Shown: one piece after another, positions 17,960 through 44,216 of the stretch
Layout: every line of letters begins with the position of its first letter
How positions within the stretch are numbered: the stretch's first letter is position 1
NCBI GenBank assembly: GCA_022570935.1
Contig: JACZYU010000002.1
Location: forward strand, 1 to 51,694
DNA length: 51,694 nt
DNA from: Planctomycetota bacterium
GTDB taxonomy: Bacteria; Planctomycetota; Brocadiia; Brocadiales; Scalinduaceae
Reading direction: 5' to 3'
Position numbers and translations under genes: made by a program
The notes under the pieces: generated by a model
Seen by the model: the letters and a program-made list of their open reading frames with translations, nothing else
The model's database searches: none
Told to the model about the DNA's origin: nothing

Positions 17960-20749
17960 CTAAAGTTTAAGAGTCCTGGCACAACGAAAACCCATGCTGA
18001 AGAACCTGATACACGGTCCGAAGAGGTGGCGATACGCGCACCGGCAGAAGTAACTAATGCAGTCCCACGAGCCGCCGCGCAAAACAAAAGTATCTTTGTC
18101 CTTGTCATAGCGGCTACTCGTCCACTCCCACACATTACCACTCAGGTCTGAAATTCCTTCCTGTGTGTTTCCCTCCCTGAATACACCTACAGGTGAAGTC
18201 TTATTGATTTCAATTTCACCATTATTGCACTTGTTCTTATCCCATTCATTACTCCAGGGATATTCCCTTCTTTCATGACCGGATGCCGCTGCTTCCCATT
18301 CGCTTTCATCGAGGAGCCTGTATTCATATTCGTCTTTCGCCTCAGCGCTCAGCCATCTTGTAAACGCATACGCCTCATACCATGAGACTCCAACAACAGG
18401 GGCATTCGGACATTTCCACTTGCGGTCATTCCAATATTCCGGTAGTTCTGATTTATTTTCATAGAGCCACTTCTTTCCCTCCTCGCTCCAGTACTCTCCA
18501 TTTTTGCATCCACCGGCCTTAATAAACTCTCCGAACCAACTGTTTGTAACAGGGAACTTTCCTATCTCAAATGGCTTGATATCGGCTTTACCGGTACTCA
18601 ACGTATAAGCTCCTCCTGCAACCTTTATAAATTCCTTTAGGTTCCTTGTGTCACCAAGCCAGCCAAGGATTTCTCCTACCGCAACTCTATCTTTTACCGG
18701 AACATCTTCATCGATAACTTTTCTCATCTCTCTTATTAGATTGTCGCATAAACCTTCGTCTATATTATCAATGCTTGTGTCTAGCGCACATTCTCCTGCA
18801 AGGATAAGGTTTTGAAAAGCGTCCTGGTCTTTTTCGAAAACATCCTTTATAAAATTACTGGCGGCCTTTCTTTTAAGGGATGTGACTGTCAGCAGTACAA
18901 CCTCTTTCCACTCAGGTTTAAAAAGATTATCTCCTAATTCTTCAATAATATCGTCACTTAAGTCTGTCACGTTTCTTGCGGCAAGGTATTCCTTAAATGT
19001 TAAATGAATAAAACCGTATGTCCCGGGTGTAACCTCTTGCAGAATGCCACTTCTCTCTTTCATTATTAGTATGAAATCTCCTGCCTGTTCCTTTGAAAGG
19101 AGTAAATCTTTGTTTCTTAAATCAAATTTCTTTGTAAGCTCTTCTTTCAGTGTCTCGTAATCTATATCAGGCTGGGCTTTTACGTGCATATCAAAGGCAA
19201 TTGGCCCCAGGTAATAAACTATAAAATCCTCTGTAATATTTTTTTTACCAAGCTTAAATCCTCGTTTTTCAGATTCATATAGACTTCTCAGGTTTTCCCA
19301 GGATCCTGATAGCATCCTTAAGCATTTTGCGTAGAGGTCAGCTCTATCTTTGGGTAATTCACCTCCCTCGTGTTCGATCAGCGCAAGTATTGTCAGCATT
19401 AATGGATTGGTTGCTATATTGAAGATGTTTCTATCGTTTTTAACAACTGACATCATTTTTTTTAAGTTTCCCCTGGCTTCGGTTTCAGCTGTTTCGACTC
19501 GTTTATTTATTTCTCTTTCATAGCACAAATACCATTTAGAGAAAAAGACCTCTATCTCGTCAATATCAAAGGGGTGTATTATATAGAGGGAGAAATCAGT
19601 ATCCTTTATTTTTTCGAACCTGCTGGTCATGGTATAACTCGCGGTCCTACAAGTCACTAAAAACTTATTGTCAGAGAAATCATCATACCCTATAAAATTG
19701 CTTATATCGGAAACCATTTTTTTTCTTGCTGTCTCATTCGTTACTTCGTCAAGGCCGTCAAGAAGGACTAACGCGCTATTGCTTCTTAATGCTTTTTCAA
19801 AAAGAGGTGCTAAATTTGGCAGTCCCTGACTTTTAAAGTATAAAGGGATAAATTCATTAAGGGACAGGTTTGTTAAACTATCTTTTTTGCATTCTTCCGC
19901 GTAAGCGGCTATAGGAAATAGTATGGGCAGTAACTCTCTATTCTCAGAAATTTCCAATCTTTCATTCTCTTTTCCATCAATAAACGCCAAGGCTATATAT
20001 TTTAAAAGTGTGCTCTTGCCAGAACCAGGGTCTCCGGTTATTACTGAGTATTTAGAATCCAATATATTGGATATTTTTACAGAGTCTTCTTTGAGGCGTT
20101 CAATTAACTCTGCCTTTTCCACGAGTTCCTTTTTCTTTAAATATTCCATTTTGTCCCTGAAAATTTCTTTTGTTAATGTCAGCTTGGTATAAATATCCTT
20201 TAACGAAAAAGAGATCAATTTGCCTTCACTTAATCCTTTAAAACTCAGATGGCTATATTTTTCCTTAATATAGTTAAAGTATTTTCTCTTTAGAAAATCC
20301 AAATCAGGCTTTTCTTCTGTAAGCCGATTCAAAATCCTCTTCATCAATTGAAGATTCATGAATGGGATCAGTTTTTCAGAGGATTCAGCTGTGAGCGTAA
20401 AACCTTCTAAAAAGTAAGTTGTGGCAGTTTTTAAGTTGAAGCCCCTAATAGTATTTATATCGATGCCCGCGTTAGCAAGGACGCCTTCAATATGCCTGGT
20501 GTCTTCTGATAGTGAAGGTTCTTTAACAATTTCAACTAACAAAGATTTTATTTCTTCACAATCCAGCAATTTCTGAAGATAGTCTTTGTCAACATCCTCA
20601 TCATTAAAGCTGTTTGAAAAAAATCTTATACCTTCAGCAAAAGCGCTATCTAATGATGCTTTAATACCGTCTGTGTCTTTCTTGCCTGTAGAAGTGAGGA
20701 ATTTTGTTGCTAAATTCGCGGATAAGGCGACTATAAACCCTTCAATCAT
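17960..20749 (-). CDS. NACHT NTPase with C-terminal FGE-sulfatase/C-type-lectin-fold domain; DGR target
   Basis: The protein has 929 residues. Residues ~1-225 are helical with no effector domain I recognise. A NACHT domain follows: Walker A GDPGSGKST (239-247), Walker B LVLLDGLDEV (about 327-336), then a helical region with FIHLTFKEYLAAR. From about residue 700 comes a formylglycine-generating-enzyme-like domain (FEIGKFPVTNSWFGEFIKAG, PVVGVSWYEAYAFTRWLS, YRLLDESEWEAAA, ISDLSGNVWEWTSSRY). It ends in RGGSW...CRCAYR...GFRCA (891-925), the classic position of DGR-diversified residues. By analogy with NLR-like STAND proteins, the C-terminal domain should be the ligand sensor and the NACHT module the switch. 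What the N-terminus does is unknown. No transmembrane segment or signal peptide is evident. The start is ATG at 20749. Confidence 0.93.
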   Translation of the reverse strand: MIEGFIVALSANLATKFLTSTGKKDTDGIKASLDSAFAEGIRFFSNSFNDEDVDKDYLQKLLDCEEIKSLLVEIVKEPSLSEDTRHIEGVLANAGIDINTIRGFNLKTATTYFLEGFTLTAESSEKLIPFMNLQLMKRILNRLTEEKPDLDFLKRKYFNYIKEKYSHLSFKGLSEGKLISFSLKDIYTKLTLTKEIFRDKMEYLKKKELVEKAELIERLKEDSVKISNILDSKYSVITGDPGSGKSTLLKYIALAFIDGKENERLEISENRELLPILFPIAAYAEECKKDSLTNLSLNEFIPLYFKSQGLPNLAPLFEKALRSNSALVLLDGLDEVTNETARKKMVSDISNFIGYDDFSDNKFLVTCRTASYTMTSRFEKIKDTDFSLYIIHPFDIDEIEVFFSKWYLCYEREINKRVETAETEARGNLKKMMSVVKNDRNIFNIATNPLMLTILALIEHEGGELPKDRADLYAKCLRMLSGSWENLRSLYESEKRGFKLGKKNITEDFIVYYLGPIAFDMHVKAQPDIDYETLKEELTKKFDLRNKDLLLSKEQAGDFILIMKERSGILQEVTPGTYGFIHLTFKEYLAARNVTDLSDDIIEELGDNLFKPEWKEVVLLTVTSLKRKAASNFIKDVFEKDQDAFQNLILAGECALDTSIDNIDEGLCDNLIREMRKVIDEDVPVKDRVAVGEILGWLGDTRNLKEFIKVAGGAYTLSTGKADIKPFEIGKFPVTNSWFGEFIKAGGCKNGEYWSEEGKKWLYENKSELPEYWNDRKWKCPNAPVVGVSWYEAYAFTRWLSAEAKDEYEYRLLDESEWEAAASGHERREYPWSNEWDKNKCNNGEIEINKTSPVGVFREGNTQEGISDLSGNVWEWTSSRYDKDKDTFVLRGGSWDCISYFCRCAYRHLFGPCIRFFSMGFRCARTLKL
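17971..18088 (-). repeat. DGR variable repeat (VR)
   Basis: These 118 bp align without gaps to 20953-21070. On the coding strand 22 positions differ. Twenty-one are at template adenines; the other is a C-to-G change at 17975. The last variable codon is followed by 17 identical bases (GGTTTTCGTTGTGCCAG), the likely initiation-of-mutagenic-homing site. Fourteen residues are changed in the diversified window of the target protein. Confidence 0.95.
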
Positions 20750-20929
20750 TTAGTACTCCATTATGAAATTGTAGTTTGCTGCCCGGGGGTTTTCAGCTCG
20801 CTTACTAACCCCTGAGTAGCAGTTTAATAATTTGTTCGTATACCATCAGGTATACGACACGGGAGCCGGGTCTGGACTCTATTATTGCACACTCCCTTTC
20901 TCCGTGAAGAAAAGGACTCCGGCTTTCGC

Positions 20930-20946
20930 GCGGGTGATTATCCCGC
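20930..20946. promoter_or_regulatory. Short hairpin flanking the template repeat
   Basis: GCGGG-TGATTAT-CCCGC lies 7 bp beyond the 3' side of the template repeat (minus-strand sense). It could structure the template RNA or end it. This is an inference only. Confidence 0.35.
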
Positions 20947-20952
20947 ATGATA

Positions 20953-21070
20953 GAGTGCTGGCACAACGAAAACCTATGTTGTTGTTCCTGATATTCGGTT
21001 CGTTGTTGTTGCGATACGCGCACCGGCAGTTGTTACTATTGTTGTTCCACGAGCCGCCGCGCAAAACAAA
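20953..21070 (-). ncRNA. DGR template repeat (TR) within a non-coding template RNA
   Basis: On the minus strand this is rich in AAC codons and has 34 adenines. Its conceptual translation reads [20 protein letters not shown] and onward, a normal sign of a DGR template. It starts 37 bp after the reverse transcriptase stop codon and lies 203 bp before the target gene. The open frame across it is a by-product of similarity to the target, so it is not annotated as a gene. The template RNA is copied by the reverse transcriptase with adenine-specific errors and the cDNA replaces the variable repeat. Confidence 0.95.
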
Positions 21071-21107
21071 TTCGACCCTGCCCCTTTACAACATCATAGG
21101 TTTAAAA

Positions 21108-22169
21108 TCAATTTAAGGTTTTGGTAAATACGGTGTTCCGGAATATCTCTTTTCTCAGTTGATAGCTGTCCGCATGTTTAACATGTCCAATCCAGCTCTG
21201 TATAGAATTGTTAATTTCAGGTATTCTGATATTTCCGTTTTTATACTCTTCTGTCATATCCCTTAATTTCCTTCTATATCTCTTTACAATACTTTTTCTG
21301 ACACGTACGTAATCGGGATATATTCTGTATCCGAGGAAATCTACACCATCTGTTGTCCTGAAAACCCTGCTTTTGTTTTCATGTAAACGCAATCTTAATG
21401 TCATAAGGTATTTTTTGATTTCACATTTGATCTCGTTTAACCATACCTTGGAATTTCCAAAAATAACAAAATCATCGCAGTAACGTATGTAAAACCTGGC
21501 AGTTAATTCTTCTTTGATAAAATGATCAAAGTCGTTCAGATACAAGTTGGCAAAAAACTGACTTGTAAGATTGCCCATTGGTAGGCCTTTTTTCCGGTAA
21601 AGGGGAGTAAAAAGGTCATCACCTTCAAAATACGTTAACTCTCTACCGCTTTGCCTTGAATCGATTATTTGCTTTACAAGCCACATGGTGTTTTTACACT
21701 TTATCTTTTTTTGGACTTTATTCAATAGAATTTCCTGATCAACATTTTCAAAATATTTTCTTACATCACACTTGAGTACGTATTTATTCTTTTTTTGAAA
21801 TTCCTTATAGCGTTGAACAGCTTTATGTGTGCCTCTGCCTTTTAAACATGCGTATGTATCATAGATAAATGATTTTCCTATAGTTGGTTCGATAATGTTT
21901 ATGAGCGTGTGGTGTATGACCCTGTCGAAGTATGGCGCTGCGCTTATAATTCGTTTCTTAGGGTCATAGATATGGAAATCACAATAGGCGCCCGGTACAT
22001 AGGTTTTATTACTCAGGACTTCGATTATCTTCAGGAGATTACGCTCAAGATTGTACTCGAACAATGCTGTAGACGCCTTATATCTTTTCCCCCGTCTTGC
22101 CTTCTTTGACGCTTTCAGTATATTTTCGAAAGATATGATTCTCTCAAAAAGATTATTTTTCCTTTTCAT
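21108..22169 (-). CDS. DGR reverse transcriptase
   Basis: The protein has 353 residues, the usual DGR RT size, without maturase or endonuclease domains. Motifs: KCDVRKYFENVD (catalytic Asp near 135), GLPMGNLTSQFFANLYLNDFDHF (195 onward; the GxxxSQ form is typical of DGR enzymes as opposed to QGxxxSP of group II introns), and YIRYCDDFVIFG, with YCDD at 230-233 in place of YADD. It overlaps the end of avd by 17 bp, so translation is coupled. It would copy the template RNA located immediately downstream, with errors at adenines. A retron RT is unlikely, because there is no msr/msd-like inverted structure and the TR/VR pair is explicit. Confidence 0.95.
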   Translation of the reverse strand: MKRKNNLFERIISFENILKASKKARRGKRYKASTALFEYNLERNLLKIIEVLSNKTYVPGAYCDFHIYDPKKRIISAAPYFDRVIHHTLINIIEPTIGKSFIYDTYACLKGRGTHKAVQRYKEFQKKNKYVLKCDVRKYFENVDQEILLNKVQKKIKCKNTMWLVKQIIDSRQSGRELTYFEGDDLFTPLYRKKGLPMGNLTSQFFANLYLNDFDHFIKEELTARFYIRYCDDFVIFGNSKVWLNEIKCEIKKYLMTLRLRLHENKSRVFRTTDGVDFLGYRIYPDYVRVRKSIVKRYRRKLRDMTEEYKNGNIRIPEINNSIQSWIGHVKHADSYQLRKEIFRNTVFTKTLN

Positions 22170-22518
22170 CCTTTGATATCTGGTATTTCAACCAACCTCC
22201 AATTTCAGAGCCTATTTCATTGAGGCATTTTGAGACATACTCATATTTCTTTATACTGAGGTATTTCAGGTCATTAGTAAGCCGGATAAGATATCTGAGT
22301 TTTTCAATCTTGAGATTTGCTTTTTCCAGGGATGGAGCCTTGTCTCTTGTGTATATTGCCTGGATGATTAATTCCATAACGTCCAGAAGATTGGTTTCAA
22401 CCCGGTCCCCAAGAAGATACCTCTGGCTCTTTGGGAACTTTTCAAGCTGAGGTATTATCCAGAGGATCAGGTTGTAGGTTTTAGTCAGTGCGCTTACTTC
22501 CTTTTGTTCATTTGCCAT
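22153..22518 (-). CDS. avd: DGR accessory protein Avd (four-helix bundle)
   Basis: The protein has 121 residues, all helical in character. Family features: LTKTYNLILWIIPQLEKFPKSQRYLLGDRVE, then LLDVMELIIQAIYTRDKA, then LEKANLKIEKLRYLIRLTNDLKYLS and GSEIGGWLK. Avd forms a basic pentameric barrel that binds the RT and the template RNA. It is the first gene of the cassette avd-RT-TR-target, all on the minus strand. Its start lies only 2 bp from the start of an opposite small reading frame, so its promoter must lie within that frame. Confidence 0.93.
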   Translation of the reverse strand: MANEQKEVSALTKTYNLILWIIPQLEKFPKSQRYLLGDRVETNLLDVMELIIQAIYTRDKAPSLEKANLKIEKLRYLIRLTNDLKYLSIKKYEYVSKCLNEIGSEIGGWLKYQISKDEKEK

Positions 22519-30849: not shown

Positions 30850-32388
30850 TTACAATGCCACTGTTTTCCTTATATCATTGATAATAAATTCGTCAGCAGC
30901 ATACGGCCCCCAGGTACCTGCCCGATAAAGGTGAATATGAGGCAATTCTTCACTGGCCCATCCTTCAAGTATGCCATTCACTAACTTCCATGCTACTTCT
31001 ACTTCATCCTGCCGGATAAAGAGTGTACTGTCACCTAATATAGCGTCTAAAATCAGGCGTTCGTATGCTCCCGGAGGCTCTACATCAAAAACGTCGCTGT
31101 AGCTGAACTCCATGTCTTTAGGTTCTAAGATCATTTTCGGGCCCGGAACTTTCATGCCTATGGACAGGCGTATACCTTCATTCGGTTGCACCCGCAATGA
31201 GAGCATATTAGGTTTCATATGATCCTGCTCTTCACCATCGTTATTTTTTATATGACTGAAAAGCGCAAGAGGCGGCTGCCGGAATTCAATATTAACTTCA
31301 GTAAGTCGTTCTGTCAGCGCCTTTCCCGTACGAAGATAAAACGGTACACCGGCCCAGCGCCAGTTGTCCACATGTAATCTCAGCGCTACAAATGTCTCGG
31401 TCACGGAATTGGACTTTACACCTGCCTCTCTTAAATAATCCGGAATCAATTTCCCATCTATAGTTCCTGCCGCATATTGTCCACGTACGGAACACTCGTT
31501 AACTTTACTCTTTTCAATAGGAGGAATAGCGCTCAACACCTTTACCTTTTCATCGCGTACAGCATCAGGCGCAAAAGAGGCAGGCGGCTCCATAGCAACA
31601 AGCGCCAACAATTGCAGCATGTGATTTTGTACCATATCGCGGAGCGCACCAGAATTGTCATAATATCCGCCGCGTCCCTCCACGCATACGGATTCTGCCA
31701 CGGTGATATGAACATGACTCACGTATCGGCGATTCCAGAGCGGTTCAAATATACTATTGCCGAAACGGAACGCCATTATATTTTGAACGGTTTCCTTACC
31801 CAGATAATGATCGATACGATAAATCTGACTCTCATCTAATATGGATGATAAGCTTTTATTTAAATCGTAAGCGGTTTCAAGGTCACGTCCAAAAGGCTTC
31901 TCAACGATAACTCTTGTCCAGCGATTTTTATCATTCGGATCGGAGATGTATCCGGCCTGACCAAGCATTGCAACAATTCCGGAAAAAACGTTGGGAGGTG
32001 TAGATAGGTAAAACAGGCGATTAGCCTTGGCAGAATCTATTCCGCGTTCTTCACCAAGCTTATCCATCAATTTTTTTAAATCATGAAAACTTTTACTGCT
32101 ATCATAGTTTCCGGTTTGGTAATAGCAACATGAACTAAATACTTTTAATTCCCTGGACCCTGCCTCCGGCTTAGATCTGGCAAATTCTACTAAGGCATCT
32201 TCAATTTCAACACGAAATTGTTCATGAGATTTTTCACGTCTGGCAAATCCGACAATCGTGATCTTTTCTGCAAGTAGACCATCTTTGACCAACTGAAACA
32301 AGGCCGGTATCAATTTGCGTTTTGTCAAATCACCAGACGCACCGAAAATAACTATGGTGGCAGGTTCGGCTTTCTGTCGAGTAGGCAT
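30850..32388 (-). CDS. zwf: Glucose-6-phosphate 1-dehydrogenase (left copy)
   Basis: The protein has 512 residues. The N-terminal dinucleotide-binding motif is IVIFGASGDLTKRKLIPAL, and the active-site motif is YRIDHYLGKETVQN, with EKPFGRDLETA before it. It oxidises glucose 6-phosphate with NADP(+) or NAD(+). It is about 94 percent identical by eye to the copy at 35720-37252. It faces away from gnd, with an intron remnant between. The N-terminal few residues (MPTRQK) differ from the other copy, so the duplication begins at about the second to fourth codon. Confidence 0.96.
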   Translation of the reverse strand: MPTRQKAEPATIVIFGASGDLTKRKLIPALFQLVKDGLLAEKITIVGFARREKSHEQFRVEIEDALVEFARSKPEAGSRELKVFSSCCYYQTGNYDSSKSFHDLKKLMDKLGEERGIDSAKANRLFYLSTPPNVFSGIVAMLGQAGYISDPNDKNRWTRVIVEKPFGRDLETAYDLNKSLSSILDESQIYRIDHYLGKETVQNIMAFRFGNSIFEPLWNRRYVSHVHITVAESVCVEGRGGYYDNSGALRDMVQNHMLQLLALVAMEPPASFAPDAVRDEKVKVLSAIPPIEKSKVNECSVRGQYAAGTIDGKLIPDYLREAGVKSNSVTETFVALRLHVDNWRWAGVPFYLRTGKALTERLTEVNIEFRQPPLALFSHIKNNDGEEQDHMKPNMLSLRVQPNEGIRLSIGMKVPGPKMILEPKDMEFSYSDVFDVEPPGAYERLILDAILGDSTLFIRQDEVEVAWKLVNGILEGWASEELPHIHLYRAGTWGPYAADEFIINDIRKTVAL

Positions 32389-32543
32389 AATATGATTCCT
32401 CCATTTAGGTTTATTTTGTTTTCCCTGTTTCTCTACTCTTTCGATTGTAGAGTGTCACATTATTCAAACCATGTGTGAGGAACTTCAACACCCCTCACAG
32501 AACCGGACTTGTGAATTTCTCACATCCGGCTCTTCAACTTAAC

Positions 32544-33135
32544 TCACTTCACATGTGACAGTGTGTATAGATTATGCTTGATACTTGGTTTCGGAAGAGG
32601 ATAACAACTCAGGTAATCATTAAACTTATTCCAGTTCATCTTCTTCTTTTGACTTCGCCTATTCAGCCATTTGCGTACTAAGCGAACTGTTATTGTGTAG
32701 TATTTTGATATCGAGGGCATATTGCCACTAACACCATAATACTGATAGTGCCCCTGTAGTTTAGTCCTTAATACCTTCCACCATTCTTTCGTTTTCACGA
32801 GGTTTCTTATCGATTTAAGCCAGAGATTCATATCCTTGCATTTCGCTTTAAACTTCTTACGACTCGTCTTACGCCCAACTTTAAATCCTCCTTTGCGGGT
32901 CTTGTCGCAGTAGTGGGTAAATCCCAGAAAATCAAACGTATTAGCACGTCTGTTCTGCTTCTTCGCATTCTCACTTTCAAATCTCCCGAAGCTGAACGCT
33001 CTGCTCTTGTCAGGTCGCCGACTCAGAGAGTCTCTGCCTCGGAGAGATGTATCTCAAGCCCATATCTTTCAAATCTGCCCTTAAGTGCTTTTTCAATCCT
33101 TTGGGCATCTTCCGCATACTGAACTACGCAAACAC
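32544..33135 (-). pseudogene. Group II intron reverse transcriptase/maturase, C-terminal remnant
   Basis: Translation of the minus strand from 33135 gives VCVVQYAEDAQRIEKALKG and RFERYGLEIHLSEAETL, then a frameshift. It resumes with FDFLGFTHYCDKTRKGGFKV and a maturase region LRTKLQGHYQYYGVSGN near the end (frame 32831-32544). This is the part of an RT that follows the YADD motif. Upstream of it lies the 3' end of another intron. The host RT differs from the one at 40659, so this is an independent locus, now decayed. Confidence 0.8.
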
Positions 33136-33485
33136 GGTGAGTCACGCAAGGGAACTTCCCCCTCACGTGCTCTAAAAACCCGGCGTGAACCTCTCAGCTC
33201 AACGGGCTCCCATTATCCAACCGCTGGTTTTAAGCCCATCTTCCAGTGCGGAAACAACCAGGGTTCCTTACTGGCTATTCTGCCCAAAAAGTACTCTGCA
33301 CGCCTGCAATGACCTTTCAACCTCTTAAATTTCCGTGTGACCCACCTAACAAGAGTCCTGTTAAGGTGCCTTAATATTGGATACATTGCCGATTTGTAAA
33401 AACTGCAATAATAATTTATCCAACCCCGGATTACCGGACTAAACATATTGGATAAATCTTCAAGGGACTTATCGCTACGCAGATG
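33136..33485 (-). mobile_element. 3' remnant of an inner group II intron inserted at the YADD site
   Basis: Reversed, it is a near copy of 43108-43457: the C-terminus of the same RT (LHLRSDKSLEDLSNMFSPVIRGWIN, then ...FPHWKMGLKPAVG), followed by the same domain V (AGCCCGTTGAGCTGAGAGG...) and domain VI ending TGACTCACC. It is cut at 33485 by the palindrome at 33489-33563. Confidence 0.85.
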
Positions 33486-33488
33486 TAG

Positions 33489-33563
33489 AAAATAGGGACA
33501 GCGACTGTTTATTACTTTTTTTTATGGCATTCCCAGCCATAAAATAGTCGCTGTCCCTATTTT
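33489..33563. repeat. 75-bp inverted-repeat element with perfect 18-bp arms
   Basis: The arms AAAATAGGGACAGCGACT and its reverse complement are perfect. The loop holds a second small hairpin (ATGGC...GCCAT). It abuts the truncated intron remnant. A half copy lies at 50418-50442 (with GGATAG). It looks like a non-autonomous element or a transposon end pair. The following stretch 33564-33913 has no gene that I can support. Confidence 0.85.
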
Positions 33564-33913
33564 CTCTGCATAATAAGTATTAAACAACCGGCTAAAGAAT
33601 TTCCTGCATCCATGGTCAATCCGGAAAACGGGACGCTTCACTGGATGCTGGATTCTGAAGCTATGGTTTTAATCAATAAAAACGCAAGAGAAGTTATGTT
33701 TCCTTTTTAAGTAACAATTAACTCGCCCGAAGATTTTGATGTAGGGTGAATTAAAGTCCACGGCGTTTTTTGTCCGGGGAAGCGGGGCGCCTGCCTGCCG
33801 GTAGGCGGGAATCCACCAATTATCTATGTTTTCTCAGCGATCACTGCGGTGAACTATTATAAAAAGGGGATAAAAAAAATATAGGTGTTATTATAGCAAT
33901 ATGTACAACTGTT

Positions 33914-35719: not shown

Positions 35720-37252
35720 ATGAAGAAAGCCGAGCCTGTCACCATAGTTATTTTTGGTGCGTCTGGTGATTTGACAAAACGCAAATTAATACCGGCTTTG
35801 TTTCAGTTGGTCAAAGATGGTCTACTTGCAGAAAAGATCACGATTGTCGGATTTGCCAGACGTGAAAAATCTCATGAACAATTTCGTGTTGAAATTGAAG
35901 ATGCCTTAGTGGAATTTGCCCGATCTAAGCCTGAGGCAGGATCAAGCGAATTAAAAGTCTTTAGTTCATGTTGCTATTACCAAACCGGAAACTATGATAG
36001 TAGCGAAAGCTTTAAAGATTTAGGAAAATTACTAGAAAAGCTTGATGAAGAACGTGGAATGGATTCTGCCAAGGCCAACCGCTTGTTCTACCTCTCTACA
36101 CCTCCCAACGTTTTTTCCGGAATAGTTGCAATGCTTGGCCAGACCGGACATATCTCCGATCCGAATGATAAAGATCACTGGACAAGAGTCATAGTTGAGA
36201 AGCCTTTTGGACGAGACCTTGAAACCGCTTGCGATTTAAATAAAAGCTTATCATCTATTTTAGATGAGAGCCAGATTTATCGTATCGATCATTATCTGGG
36301 TAAGGAAACCGTTCAAAATATAATGGCGTTCCGCTTCGGCAACAGCATATTTGAACCGCTCTGGAACCGGCGCTACGTGAGTCATGTTCATATCACAGTG
36401 GCAGAATCCGTATGCGTGGAGGGCCGCGGTGGCTATTATGACAATTCGGGAGCGCTCCGCGATATGGTACAAAATCACATGTTGCAATTGTTGGCGCTTA
36501 TTGCCATGGAGCCGCCTGCATCATTTGCGCCTGATGCTGTTCGAGATGAGAAAGTAAAGTTATTAAGTGCAATTCCTCCCATTAAATCGAATGAGGTTAA
36601 TGAGTATTCCGTACGTGGACAATATGCGGCAGGAACTATAGATGGAAAATTAATTCCGGATTATTTAAGAGAGGCTGGTGTAAAGTCCAATTCTGTGACC
36701 GAGACCTTTGTAGCGCTGAGATTACATGTGGACAACTGGCGCTGGGCGGGTGTACCGTTTTATCTTCGTACCGGAAAGGCACTGACAGAACGCCTTACTG
36801 AAGTAAATATTGAATTTCGGCAGCCGCCTCTTGCTCTTTTCAGTCATATAAAAGATGATGGGGAGACAGAGGAACAGAGTCGTATGAAACCTAATATGCT
36901 CTCATTGCGGGTACAACCGAATGAAGGTATACGCCTGTCCATAGGCATGAAAGTTCCGGGCCCGAAAATGATTTTAGAACCTAAAGATATGGAATTCAGC
37001 TACAGCAACGTTTTTGATGTAGAGCCGCCAGGGGCATATGAGCGCTTGATTTTAGATGCTATATTAGGTGACAGCACTCTCTTTATCAGGCAGGATGAAG
37101 TCGAAGTAGCATGGACGTTAATGAATGGCATACTTAAAGGATGGGCCAGTGAAGAATTGCCTCATATTCACCTTTATCGGGCCGGCACCTGGGGGCCGTA
37201 TGCTGCTGACGAATTTATTGCCAATGATATAAGAAAAACAGGGGCGTTGTAA
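35720..37252 (+). CDS. zwf: Glucose-6-phosphate 1-dehydrogenase (right copy)
   Basis: The protein has 510 residues with the same motifs as the left copy (FGASGDLTKRKLIPAL; RIDHYLGKETVQN). The start is MKKAEPVTIVIFG with GGGGCAAGAA before the ATG. Differences from the left copy cluster in a few surface segments (for example SSESFKDLGKLLEKLDEERG versus SSKSFHDLKKLMDKLGEERG). Both copies look functional. This one is downstream of gnd and co-directional, so it is the likelier partner in an operon. Confidence 0.96.
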   Translation: MKKAEPVTIVIFGASGDLTKRKLIPALFQLVKDGLLAEKITIVGFARREKSHEQFRVEIEDALVEFARSKPEAGSSELKVFSSCCYYQTGNYDSSESFKDLGKLLEKLDEERGMDSAKANRLFYLSTPPNVFSGIVAMLGQTGHISDPNDKDHWTRVIVEKPFGRDLETACDLNKSLSSILDESQIYRIDHYLGKETVQNIMAFRFGNSIFEPLWNRRYVSHVHITVAESVCVEGRGGYYDNSGALRDMVQNHMLQLLALIAMEPPASFAPDAVRDEKVKLLSAIPPIKSNEVNEYSVRGQYAAGTIDGKLIPDYLREAGVKSNSVTETFVALRLHVDNWRWAGVPFYLRTGKALTERLTEVNIEFRQPPLALFSHIKDDGETEEQSRMKPNMLSLRVQPNEGIRLSIGMKVPGPKMILEPKDMEFSYSNVFDVEPPGAYERLILDAILGDSTLFIRQDEVEVAWTLMNGILKGWASEELPHIHLYRAGTWGPYAADEFIANDIRKTGAL

Positions 37253-39636: not shown

Positions 39637-40658
39637 TATCTCTATCCCGGAGGATATGGGTTTAAACTATTGTACTTTTGTCTGTCTCAATCTAATTTCC
39701 ACAGTCCTACTTGTCTCAAACTATGTGCCAACGTTATTTTATCCGCCAAAACTATAAGAATATCTACGTCCTAACATACTGATGGTACGGGGCTTGTAAA
39801 AATAAAAAACATACCTTAGGGAGGGTGGTGGTGTTCCAATCTGACGTATGCATGGTGGGGGAATTTCTCCCAGTCAATTCGGAGAATTGTTTCTAAAATT
39901 TGCGGTATTTACAGGAATATAAACAAGTTATGAAGGGGGGGGCAGAAAACCCCTCACCTGGGGTGATTTCACCCCACATTTTAGAAGAAAATATCCACAG
40001 GTATTCTTTAAAGGAATCTTTTATGAACACCGGCTAGCGGCGTGCTGCTTGGCGGGCTTGCCCGACGATTCGTGTGGCGGGTGCGGTGAATTATCTATTT
40101 GCTTTTACCTTTTAGTGCTAATCCGGTTTACTCCAGCTATGCTGGATTGTTCTATTCAATTGAAACGTATTGAAATTGGTAATTGTTTATTCGCCAATTA
40201 GCTGCGCATTGGCGTGTGAAAGTGATGGATCACGCGAAACATTGCGGTATTGGTAAGTGTGTTAATGCGAAGAAGGATGGTTCCTTCCGACAGCGAAGAT
40301 GTGAGCCCTAATAAAGTGAACCTGTTTCGGCCTCGTTACACTAAACTGCCGTTGGCTATCCTGCCGGATATGGTGAAGCCTGCTACAGACATGGAAGAAA
40401 TAAACGAATGCACATGTCAGGACGGTCGGGGTGATTGGGGAGAGCGCGCATCGAAAGAACAATCATGGTATCTGGGATATCCTTCCCGCGTCATTTTCTC
40501 GGAGGTCGAGAGATTGAAAAGGTGTTGGGGAATCAATAACTTGATTATCTGCGGAGAAGGAAGTCGGAGCGGCCAATAAGAGCGAAGACGCAGGGTAATG
40601 CCTGTCAAGCAAAGTGGCCGTACCGTTATTATGTTTACAGAATAGAAAGGAGTTCCGC

Positions 40659-41594
40659 TTGAACGCAGACCGTTCCACTACGGGCAAGGTATTATTCGGG
40701 AGTCATATTCCGGAAAAAGATATGCCGTTGAAACTCTCTTTACTACGCTGGAAACTTGGCTGCAAGGCCAAGCAGGAACCTGAGTTTCGGTTTTATGCGC
40801 TGTATGATCGTATTTATCGACGTGATGTTCTGGAAACAGCCTACAAGATTGCGAAGCAGAAGAACGGTTCCCCTGGAGTGGACAATGTGTCATTTGATGA
40901 CATAGAGAAGTCCGATCTTGGTGCAGCAGGTCTTATCGACTGTCTGCATGAGGAATTACGGTGCAAGTCGTATAGACCGTTACCGGTAAGAAGGACGTAT
41001 ATTGCCAAGGCAAATGGGAAGATGCGCCCCCTGGGCATTCCGTGTATACGGGACAGAGTGGTGCAGGCGGCGACGAAATTAATTCTGGAGCCGATATTTG
41101 AGGCAGATTTCTTTAACTGTTCTCATGGTTTCAGGCCGAAACGCTGCGCCCATGATGCGATTGGACAAATACAGGCCAATCTGCGTGACGGCAGGACAGA
41201 AGTTTATGATGCAGATTTGTCATCCTACTTCGACACGATAGACCATGAACTTCTGATGGAGATGATAAAGAAACGAGTCAGTGATCGGTCAGTTCTGAAG
41301 CTCATTAGAATGTGGCTGAGATGCCCTTTCAGCGAAGAGCAGAAGGATAAAGGTTGCGTGGGAAATTCACGGATTGCAAAAATCCGTAGAAAACTCTCGA
41401 AAAAACTTGCGAAGTCTAAGGGGAGCAGAGGTGTCTCTAAGCTCACGAAACCGACATGCGGAACGCCGCAGGGCGGCGTGATTTCTCCTCTGCTTGCCAA
41501 CATCTTTCTCAATGAGTTGGACAAGGCTTTTCATTGTCAGCCGGGTTCACCGCTTTACTTTGCAAATGCGCGTCTGATCCGCTATGCCGACGAC
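40659..41594 (+). CDS. Outer group II intron RT/maturase, 5' exon part
   Basis: A TTG at 40659 with AAAGGAG 7 bases upstream gives residues from [16 protein letters not shown]. It includes [51 protein letters not shown] and [22 protein letters not shown], and ends exactly at LIRYADD. The coding continues at 43458 after the inner intron. Spliced, the protein would be about 480 residues, a normal group II intron RT. Without splicing it is truncated ten codons past YADD. Confidence 0.85.
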
Positions 41595-41595
41595 T

Positions 41596-43457
41596 GTGTG
41601 CCACGAACGAAACTTAGCGTTAGCTGAGTTTCTTAGCTGCACAAAAGATGAGGGTAGACCCCTCGGAGTCGCCTTGCAGGAGGAGACTTCAAACCGCCTC
41701 AAGCTGCATTGGTCAAGAGCCAATGTGGTGAGCGTTGAGGGAAAAGGCTCAGCAAGACTGAGTCAGGTACGTGACTTGGAGACGAATGAAAATGAACCAC
41801 CGATGAAGTGTCGAAAGCGTAGAGAAGGCGTCAAAACCGGGGGGTAGTCGTTAATCCGGGATAAGTCCAGAAGAAACCTGTTTACTGACTGGTCGGCGTC
41901 CGGCATTAAGGTGGCGTGAACTTGACACAGGCTTTTGTGCGGAACGTGGGAACCTGTCGTTCAGATGCTAAGGGAGAATTTCAAGTGGAAGCCCCACAAG
42001 AAAGAGAGTACCAATGCTGAACACAGGGGCGGATTTCCCCGTAGTAGCAGCGAAGGTCAGTAATGCGGCCAGAGCAAAGGGGGAGAGTTATCCAGCAATA
42101 TTTAAAGAACAACCATTAATTGGGAGGAATCTTTGAGTAAAGCAAAGTCGTTTATAATTTCTAAAGAGTTGGTATTGGAAAGCTGGAAACGAGTAAAAGC
42201 GAATAAAGGATCCTGTGGGATAGATGACGAGTCTATATCAGAATTTAGTGAAGATTATAAAAACAATCTTTACAAGATATGGAACCGCATGTCATCGGGC
42301 AGTTATTTTCCTCCACCGGTAAAAACGGTAGGAATACCGAAAAAGAGTGGGGGAGTAAGAGTGCTTGGAATTCCGACGGTCTCAGATCGAGTAGCACAGA
42401 TGGTAGTGAAACTGCACTTTGAGCCTCTTGTGGAGCCGTATTTTCATATAGACTCTTACGGATACAGGGAGGGTAAATCAGCGATACAAGCGGTAAGAGT
42501 AACAAGGAAGCGTTGTTGGAAGTATGATTGGGTATTGGAGTTTGACATCAAAGGTCTTTTTGATAACATTGGTCATGATCTATTGATGCGAGCAGTACGT
42601 CATCACACGAATTGCAAATGGACGCTTTTGTACATCGAAAGATGGCTGAAAGCTCCATTTAAGTTAGAAGACGGCTCTATTGAAATCAGAACCAAGGGGA
42701 CGCCGCAAGGCGGAGTAATAAGCCCTTTGTTGGCTAACCTGTTTTTGCATTATGTATTTGACAAATGGATGGAGCTAAATCATCCAGGAAAACCTTTCAG
42801 CCGCTATGCGGACGATGGGGTAGTTCACTGCAAAACAGAAGCTGAAGCGCAATTGTTACTGAAGGCTTTGTCAGCGAGATTTATTGAATGTGGTCTTGAG
42901 CTTCATCCTGAGAAAACGGTGATAGTCTACTGTAAAGACGATGATCGAGTTAAAGATTACCCGAACACGAGCTTTGATTTCTTGAGTTTTACATTTCGTC
43001 CAAGGAGGTCTAAGAATCGTTTTGGCAAATTCTTTATCAATTTTTCTCCTGCGGTGAGTAATGCTGCCGCAAAAGCGATGAGACAAAAGGCGAGAAAATG
43101 GAAACTTCATCTGCGTAGCGATAAGTCACTTGAAGATTTATCCAATATGTTTAGTCCTGTAATCCGGGGTTGGATAAATTATTATTGCAGCTTTTACAAA
43201 TCGGAGATGTATCCAATATTAAGGCACCTTAACCGGACTCTTGTTAGATGGGCCACACGGAAATTTAAAAGGTTGAAAGGTCATCGCAGGCGTGCAGAGT
43301 ACTTTTTGGGCAGAATAGCCCGTAAGGAACCCTGGTTGTTTCCGCATTGGAAGATGGGCTTAAAGCCAGCGGTTGGATAATGGAAGCCCGTTGAACTGAG
43401 AGGTTCACGCCGGGTTTTGAGAGCACGTGAGGGGGAAGGTCCCTTGCGTGACTCACC
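41596..43457 (+). mobile_element. Inner group II intron, inserted at the YADD codons of the outer RT
   Basis: The element starts GTGTGCCACGAACG and ends in a domain VI hairpin ...CCCTTGCGTGACTCACC. Domain V is at 43384-43418. Removal joins GCCGACGACT to ATGTCGTAATGG, giving YADD-Y-VVMARYMGRR, a perfect RT continuation. The 5'/3' junction could be shifted by one base. Length is ~1,862 bp, with its own RT gene at 42133-43380. Confidence 0.85.
42133..43380 (+). CDS. Inner group II intron reverse transcriptase/maturase
   Basis: The protein has 415 residues, starting at TTG with GGGAGGAA upstream. RT motifs: [72 protein letters not shown] and the active site FSRYADDGVVHC. The maturase domain includes MFSPVIRGWINYYCSFYKSE. 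The C-terminus is FPHWKMGLKPAVG, with no HNH endonuclease. Retargeting to single-stranded DNA at replication forks, or use of nicks, is likely for introns lacking the endonuclease. The gene looks intact, so the intron may be active. Confidence 0.93.
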   Translation: MSKAKSFIISKELVLESWKRVKANKGSCGIDDESISEFSEDYKNNLYKIWNRMSSGSYFPPPVKTVGIPKKSGGVRVLGIPTVSDRVAQMVVKLHFEPLVEPYFHIDSYGYREGKSAIQAVRVTRKRCWKYDWVLEFDIKGLFDNIGHDLLMRAVRHHTNCKWTLLYIERWLKAPFKLEDGSIEIRTKGTPQGGVISPLLANLFLHYVFDKWMELNHPGKPFSRYADDGVVHCKTEAEAQLLLKALSARFIECGLELHPEKTVIVYCKDDDRVKDYPNTSFDFLSFTFRPRRSKNRFGKFFINFSPAVSNAAAKAMRQKARKWKLHLRSDKSLEDLSNMFSPVIRGWINYYCSFYKSEMYPILRHLNRTLVRWATRKFKRLKGHRRRAEYFLGRIARKEPWLFPHWKMGLKPAVG

Positions 43458-43954
43458 ATGTCGTAATGGCTCGCTATATGGGCAGACGCATAACTGACTG
43501 GCTGGAAGCCATCGTCGAAGATCAACTGAAGCTAAATATAAATCGGAAAAAGACAAAGGTAGTTAAAATGAAGCGGCAAGGGGAAGCTCTTGATTTTCTT
43601 GGATTTACCATGCGATACGATAAGGATTTGCATGGTAGAAACCGAACGTATCTGAATACCTTCCCGTCTATAAAGGCAATAGCCAAACATCGGGAGAAGT
43701 TGCGAACTGTTACAAATAGCGGTTATAAGCGCTCGATGTCTGATACTATTGCCAAGGTTAATGAAATTAACCGTGGTTGGAAGAATTATTTTTGCAAAGG
43801 ATATCCAAGGAAATGCTTCAGAGATATAAACTGGTTTGTACTAGAACGTTTCAAATCATTTATAAATCACCGGAGCCAACGACGATGCCGACCTCTCAGA
43901 GATGGAGAAAGCCTCTATGCAGGATTGCGTAGATTTGGCTATGTACCTCTTTGA
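43458..43954 (+). CDS. Outer group II intron RT/maturase, 3' exon part
   Basis: This reads VVMARYMGRRITDWLEAIVE, then LKLNINRKKTKVVKM, LDFLGFTMRYDKDLHGRNRTYLN and the maturase part EINRGWKNYFCKGYPRKCF, ending LRRFGYVPL. It has no independent start signal; it depends on removal of the inner intron. Domain V of the outer intron follows 50 bp after the stop. Confidence 0.85.
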
Positions 43955-44216
43955 TACCAGCAGAATCGGGTTCTCCTGTGCATGCCTTGTGACGAGAATA
44001 GCGGGTGAGCCGTATTAGTGGAAATCTCTATCTACGGTTCGATGAGGACTTCGGGATTAAACCCCCGAGGTTACTCTACTGAAATTAGTGTCTGTCTTTT
44101 GCCTTTCATTTACTTATTTGATCTTTAAGCATTGATTTGACATTTGAGCTTAATTCAAAATCCTTTGTTATTTACAACTTTTGTTCACTTTGATCTTTAG
44201 CTCACTTTAGTCACTT

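Follow-up and report, generated by a model that had tools for sequence, protein, structure and literature searches.

A class D-type group II intron lineage recurrently inserted at the YADD codons of other group II intron reverse transcriptases

Spliceosomal introns and many retrotransposons descend from group II introns or are closely related to them. The insertion of one such intron into another has been described on several occasions. According to PMC4424553, which relays Dai and Zimmerly (2003), the nested group II introns of Methanosarcina acetivorans home into other introns, and in the TeI3-in-TeI4 twintrons of Thermosynechococcus elongatus the inner intron occupies, in several copies, a fixed site in the reverse transcriptase (RT) gene of another intron (PMC2882425). 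Bacterial twintrons have been termed rare (PMC4649490). Introns of class D, such as RmInt1, recognize DNA through the pairing of exon-binding sites (EBS) with intron-binding sites (IBS), and their insertion, which takes place at replication forks, needs no endonuclease (PMC5894124). In this work we analyze a twintron from a Planctomycetota bacterium (Brocadiales; Scalinduaceae), in which an outer group II intron carries a second, inner group II intron within its RT gene. The window, by which we mean the whole stretch of DNA analyzed, comprises 51,694 nt (GCA_022570935.1, contig JACZYU010000002.1, positions 1-51,694, forward strand) of a draft metagenome-assembled genome in 270 contigs. Our results indicate that the inner intron very likely belongs to a class D-type (IIB3) lineage specialized to retrohome into the Tyr-Ala-Asp-Asp (YADD) codons of other group II introns' RTs.

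The outer RT frame opens with a TTG codon (40659), preceded by a purine-rich stretch, and runs to ..CGC TAT GCC GAC GAC T at 41595. Its match to the Pfam RVT_1 profile stops exactly at this break, having reached position 156 of the 205 in the profile, GIIM (the maturase domain) lies downstream, and two sets of domains V and VI are present (Table 1), all of which bears out the original prediction that an intron within an intron splits the outer RT at YADD. The junction put forward there, 41595/43458, proves exact to the base and far beyond what chance would give, the same break point and phase being found in about 40 relatives, and a filled/empty pair of host copies being present in Enterococcus avium. 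When 41595 is joined to 43458 in silico, the split codon becomes T+AT (Tyr), the product reads RYADD-Y-VVMARYM in frame (RYADDYVVMARYM) and an open outer RT frame of 477 codons results; an uninterrupted homologue from another genome of the same order (L143, 67% identical) reads RLVRYADDFVVMARYM at the site. Judging from the sequence, from this homologue and from the E. avium pair, splicing of the inner intron would restore the outer RT, as had been proposed. The accompanying proposal, that the inner intron controls the mobility of the outer one, describes a plausible consequence, though other RTs could act in trans. The domain I of the outer intron yielded no Rfam match, even at E 0.5.

The insert begins with GTGTGCCACG and ends with GACTCACC. 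An alternative placement two bases later (GTGCCACG / CACCAT) was ruled out by the GTGYGCC start common to its relatives and by the E. avium empty site. RNA and protein profile matches, together with the predicted fold, agree with the claim that the inner intron is complete, with its own RT, domain V and domain VI. Domain VI folds as an extended stem from which one A (43451, 7 nt before the 3′ end) bulges, and an endonuclease domain is absent from the 415-aa RT, in which only RVT_1 and GIIM score above cut-off. The inner intron displays features of class D (IIB3), namely RT and maturase in a single frame, domains V and VI with a bulged A, a GTGTG start, no endonuclease domain, and EBS1-IBS1 and EBS2-IBS2 pairing, and its RT is 58-61% identical to those of Sinorhizobium meliloti and Rhizobium plasmid introns, a similarity on which its place among class D RTs is putative. 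With an inner and an outer set of domains V and VI and a split outer RT, the locus is classified, on its sequence features, as a twintron whose inner member is a group II intron of class D type.

What the original prediction missed is the main point, which is that YADD is a programmed target of the inner lineage in many introns and not the place of a chance nesting. Relatives whose RTs are 55-77% identical were drawn from genomes and viral contigs regardless of their location; the survey comprises near relatives of the query (the best 80 of more than 586 candidates), and for a few loci the YADD label is based on the exon motif alone. The same phase-1 YADD site is occupied in 53 of the 95 sampled loci; these 53 represent about 46 distinct genomes or contigs and span Bacillota, Planctomycetota, Acidobacteriota, Verrucomicrobiota, Bacteroidota, Actinomycetota and Pseudomonadota, as well as archaea. 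In dozens of loci the RT profile applied to the flanks stops upstream at the model's YADD and restarts there downstream, and all downstream junctions read (about 40) share an identical phase, each reading through into RT. The introns usually start with GTGYGCC and enter behind the first base of the codon that follows YADD, with TAYGCNGAYGAYN/GTGYG as the exon/intron border. Their host RTs are diverse, with 47 host fragments forming 26 clusters at 60% identity. A search with the YADD junction pattern returned 8 sites in 392 Planctomycetota genomes (reversed control, 0), and the junction was present in 2 of 81 family genomes searched with M. acetivorans in view. The same arrangement is seen in isolate genomes and on complete plasmids, such as pBpOF4-01 of A. 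pseudofirmus OF4. On the tree of the lineage the YADD label is strongly clustered (15 changes, against a shuffled mean of 29), and a nested clade of 22 members uses other targets; the label changes and this retargeted clade rule out that YADD homing is the property of a single clade.

Archaeal versions of about 620 nt without an open reading frame (ORF) were also observed at YADD with the same EBS2 (L196, L194), one of which (L194) consists of two ORF-less copies in direct tandem, the second beginning right at the 3′ end of the first. Enterobacterial replicons carry the YADD-homing intron and its hosts (L136 and L137 on E. coli plasmids, L079 in Citrobacter braakii), and the two E. coli plasmid copies have decayed, their annotation showing frameshifted pieces of RT.

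Within the genome of the window, a DNA search recovered three further pieces of the inner intron, 95-98% identical. Two of them lie at contig ends (contigs 252 and 9) with their 5′ flanks kept, which read RYADD followed by the intron in two other RT genes. The remaining piece is the truncated copy on the minus strand of the window, on whose 3′ flank the RT resumes with VCVVQYAEDAQ, matching an uninterrupted RT on contig 151 (RYADDLVCVVRYADDAK). Since the flanks of all four copies read as RT split at YADD, four of four are located at YADD codons. A host RT family of E. avium ATCC 14025 comprises six copies, five filled and one empty. Taking 1,864 nt (GTGCGCC...TACTTACT) out of a filled copy reproduces the empty copy across the junction (RYADDCNIYVRS), which confirms both intron borders, and the joined filled copy and the empty copy each encode an open frame of 468 codons. 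The identical E. avium inner intron is also found in two other RT families, making at least three distinct families in all. Identical copies number nine in E. avium, six in Singulisphaera, six in Paracaedibacter and five in Pelosinus, with identical multi-copies also in Bacillus and Sporosarcina, and such identity within genomes suggests recent movement.

The guide was located by aligning the 5′ parts of 61 introns, which contain two guide segments: AGTCGTT, which occupies a hairpin loop, and GCGTA, which precedes that hairpin. EBS1 (AGUCGUU) pairs with GAYGAYT at exon positions -7 to -1, and EBS2 (GCGUA) with TAYGC at -13 to -9; all 12 guide/target positions pair in the window intron, as they do in 27 of 38 YADD-sited introns, the rest pairing at 10-11. 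Positions 3-7 of EBS1 (UCGUU) are invariant. At the 38 sites the exon wobble bases vary (-11, T22 C16; -5, T24 C14; -2, C23 T15), and the guide places a G opposite these bases in 36, 38 and 37 cases, respectively, with the fully degenerate third base of the Ala codon (-8, GCN) falling between the EBS2 and EBS1 pairings. Because G pairs with both pyrimidines, and because -8 lies outside the pairings, synonymous changes in the target are immaterial to the guide. Two introns (L073 and L079) carry a compensating U where the -1 base is A, and the stem of the EBS1 hairpin covaries. In the retargeted relatives both EBS segments are altered and fit their own exons, as in L105 (TAGGGTG/CACCCTA) and L102 (TATATTG/CAATGTA), with none of 20,000 permutations fitting as well. 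This covariation supports the assignment of EBS1 and EBS2.

The base that follows YADD in the inner RTs themselves is G in 49 and A in four of the 53 YADD-sited members, and never T or C; of the 38 host sites, 28 have T there. In most members, the guide is thus mismatched at -1 with the RT gene of the same intron, an exemption that may be partial only, given that 10 of the 38 host sites do not have T at -1 either. We rejected YADDG as a self-avoidance adaptation specific to the lineage, for retargeted relatives have the same bases (G 38, A 3); the feature probably preceded the YADD habit, and would be a pre-adaptation at most.

Other conserved codons serve as targets of related introns. In a genome of the same order (G042), related introns are inserted between the GTPQ and GG codons of other RTs (L013, ~1085; L029, ~960), in phase 0 and with the frame restored, making this a second conserved RT motif used as a target. 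Retargeted relatives lie at conserved codons of transposase-like frames, after ..W(K/Q/E)IE, ..VWASDI or ..GRKNWLFC. L041, the sister of a YADD-sited intron, follows KYADH in a transposase-like frame with GGTGGTT as its EBS1, and is a possible step of target switching. The L041 frame looks to be of IS66 type; this and the transposase naming of the retargeted frames are putative assignments by motif.

On the site, the borders, the frame restoration at the DNA level, the guide/target pairing with covariation, the recurrence and the copy numbers, our preferred reading of the inner intron is that of a retroelement specialized on other retroelements and made tolerable by splicing. Its lariat RNA and its own RT would recognize the target DNA by EBS1/EBS2 base pairing, reverse splicing would insert the intron past the first base of the codon next to YADD, and copying by the same RT would follow. 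The anatomy described here fits the class D retrohoming mode. Once co-transcribed with its host, the inner intron would splice out and restore the host RT, and the host intron could stay functional after the insertion. We infer entry by reverse splicing, splicing in vivo and an effect on outer mobility; as production of the host RT would need inner splicing, the inner intron would tax or gate its host. We further consider it rather probable that a lineage distributed across much of Bacteria and some Archaea preys on retroelements by means of a guide that fits all Tyr/Asp spellings, its own RT being largely exempt through the -1 mismatch, and that guides against the best-conserved codons of rival mobile elements have arisen time and again among group II introns, as indicated by the relatives that aim at TPQGG and by others that aim at transposase codons.

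Several points weigh against the specialization on YADD. The sample consists of the query's closest relatives, and its proportions therefore differ in meaning from population frequencies. Most of the 10 YADD sites (of 38) with a -1 base other than T fail to pair there with the first position of EBS1. Several host RTs have decayed, including that of the window copy at 33 kb and those of the E. coli plasmid copies, so that restoration is not universal, and we infer the splicing of every copy from DNA. Such decayed hosts are also what would be expected if the inner intron entered its programmed site without splicing, inactivating the outer RT and killing the host element. We consider this dead end unlikely, because the inner intron has kept an intact RT, domain V and domain VI, no stop codon interrupts the joined outer RT, and a near-full host RT is kept in 24 of the 29 loci having both halves. 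The interrupted host RTs of Sporosarcina and Bacillus OV166 also show little non-synonymous relative to synonymous divergence (dN 0.064, dS 0.811); this selection may predate the insertion, and as proof of splicing the ratio is weakened by the recent hopping of inner copies within each genome.

The five near-identical outer copies of Singulisphaera, all of them filled, could instead speak for a twintron maintained by selection as a regulatory unit, in which the inner intron gates the outer RT and both move together. Filled families are accounted for just as well by repeated homing into every new host copy, however, and E. avium, with its empty host copy and with that inner intron present in further host families, implies separate movement, which makes a joint unit distinctly improbable. 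Isolated bacterial twintrons have been reported (PMC4649490), and the locus might be one more of them, the product of a single chance retrotransposition without specialization, but we give this very little credence in view of the same codon and phase in about 40 junctions, of the four copies at YADD in one genome and of guides complementary to the YADD codons. The probability of an assembly chimera is close to nil: the draft is fragmented and has contigs ending inside inner copies, but the window crosses both borders, and isolate genomes and complete plasmids show the same arrangement. Retrohoming of a specialized lineage into YADD codons is the reading that we retain.

The second copy in the window has neighbors of its own. 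An inverted repeat of ~30 bp (AAAATAGGGACAGCGACTATT..., 33489-33570) directly adjoins its truncated end. The domain VI end of its host intron (32376-32539, minus strand) overlaps the start of a G6PD gene (30850-32388, minus strand), one of two near-identical G6PD genes, whose ATG (ATGCCTACTCGAC) lies within domain VI. This gene begins MPTRQKAEP, versus MKKAEP in the copy at 35720-37252, and the intron remnant may now supply its start codon. Elsewhere in the window, a region resembling a diversity-generating retroelement (DGR; 17960-22518, minus strand) encodes a DGR-type RT with the motif YCDD (21108-22169), an accessory ORF of small size (22153-22518) and an NTPase-like protein of 929 aa (17960-20749) with a C-terminal variable-type domain.

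Table 1. Features of the twintron and of the second inner-intron copy in the window
Feature	Positions	Strand	Basis
Second host intron remnant: decayed RT C-terminal part and domain V/VI	32376..33135	-	RNA and protein matches
Second inner-intron copy, 5′-truncated, 95% identical, then RT resuming just past YADD	33136..33488	-	DNA search, 3′ flank
Outer group II intron (host, including inner intron)	40214..44079	+	Domain V/VI match; putative 5′ end GTGTG at 40214, by eye
Outer RT gene, 5′ part, ends ..RYADD and next codon's first base	40659..41595	+	Open frame; RVT_1 profile 1-156 of 205
IBS2 TATGC (Tyr-Ala codons of YADD)	41583..41587	+	Pairs with EBS2
IBS1 GACGACT (Asp-Asp codons and next codon's first base)	41589..41595	+	Pairs with EBS1
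Inner group II intron, class D type (IIB3), 1862 nt, GTGTGCC...GACTCACC	41596..43457	+	RNA matches; borders match E. avium filled/empty pair
Inner intron domain I-IV (D1-D4) match, RF01999	41650..41768	+	117.8 bits, gathering 36
EBS2 GCGTA	41817..41821	+	G at wobble in 36/38 YADD-sited introns (A in 2); altered in retargeted relatives
EBS1 AGTCGTT, hairpin loop closed by covarying stem	41846..41852	+	Alignment, pairing with target, stem covariation
Inner intron-encoded RT/maturase, 415 aa, YADD intact	42133..43380	+	TIGR04416 412.6 bits (cut-off 300); RVT_1, GIIM
Inner domains V and VI, branch-point A at 43451	43382..43457	+	RF00029 40.5 bits, just above gathering score; folds
Outer RT gene, 3′ part (VVMARYM...), maturase domain	43458..43954	+	Open frame; GIIM (PF08388) 43.6 bits
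Outer domains V and VI	44005..44079	+	RF00029 40.2 bits; domain V fold z -4.2

With a guide blind to the synonymous spelling of catalytic codons, a selfish RNA secures a plentiful and hard-to-mutate target, its competitors. The system makes testable the gating of a rival's mobility by nested splicing, the breadth of a guide that does not hit itself, and rewiring through two short guide segments, and it constitutes a source of ready guides for the analysis of RNA-DNA wobble tolerance in retrohoming. For annotation, pairs of 'partial RT' genes flanking an intact ltrA can be read as such insertions. A full-text literature search found no account of a YADD-aimed, synonym-proof lineage, although the archaeal part may have been anticipated by Dai and Zimmerly (2003), whose contents lay outside the search. 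Intron-into-intron homing is known; its synonym-proof targeting to YADD seems to be new.

The described systems each share part of this picture. In M. acetivorans, as PMC4424553 relates, introns with and without an RT gene home site-specifically into group II introns, and ORF-less archaeal members occur in the present lineage too; up to five introns are nested in that one archaeon, and no RT-motif guide is described in that account; recurrent insertion in RT ORFs is found here. The inner introns of T. elongatus are ORF-less and sit between the first two ATGs of one closely related host family, where RT can be made without splicing (PMC2882425); the present inner intron encodes an RT, interrupts the active site of the host RT and occupies diverse hosts across phyla. 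RmInt1 and RmInt2 of S. meliloti probably belong to the same RT group (60% identity to S. meliloti plasmid records), lack an endonuclease domain and specialize on mobile elements, but the target of RmInt1 is the IS630-family ISRm2011-2 and not RT genes (PMC5894124). The Trichodesmium twintron is likewise a bacterial group II twintron, and one for which sequential splicing was demonstrated in vivo, but it is a single case in a host protein gene, without recurrent motif targeting (PMC4649490). In Porphyridium plastids one inner intron is found in two different outer introns, whose RTs are degenerate remnants and for which the site is not given as a YADD motif (PMC4476101). Finally, in Chaetomium mS1247 a group II intron splits the homing-endonuclease gene of a group I intron and its splicing could act as a gate, as it may here, but the host element is of another kind and resides in an organelle, and no lineage is aimed at a catalytic motif (PMC4801052).

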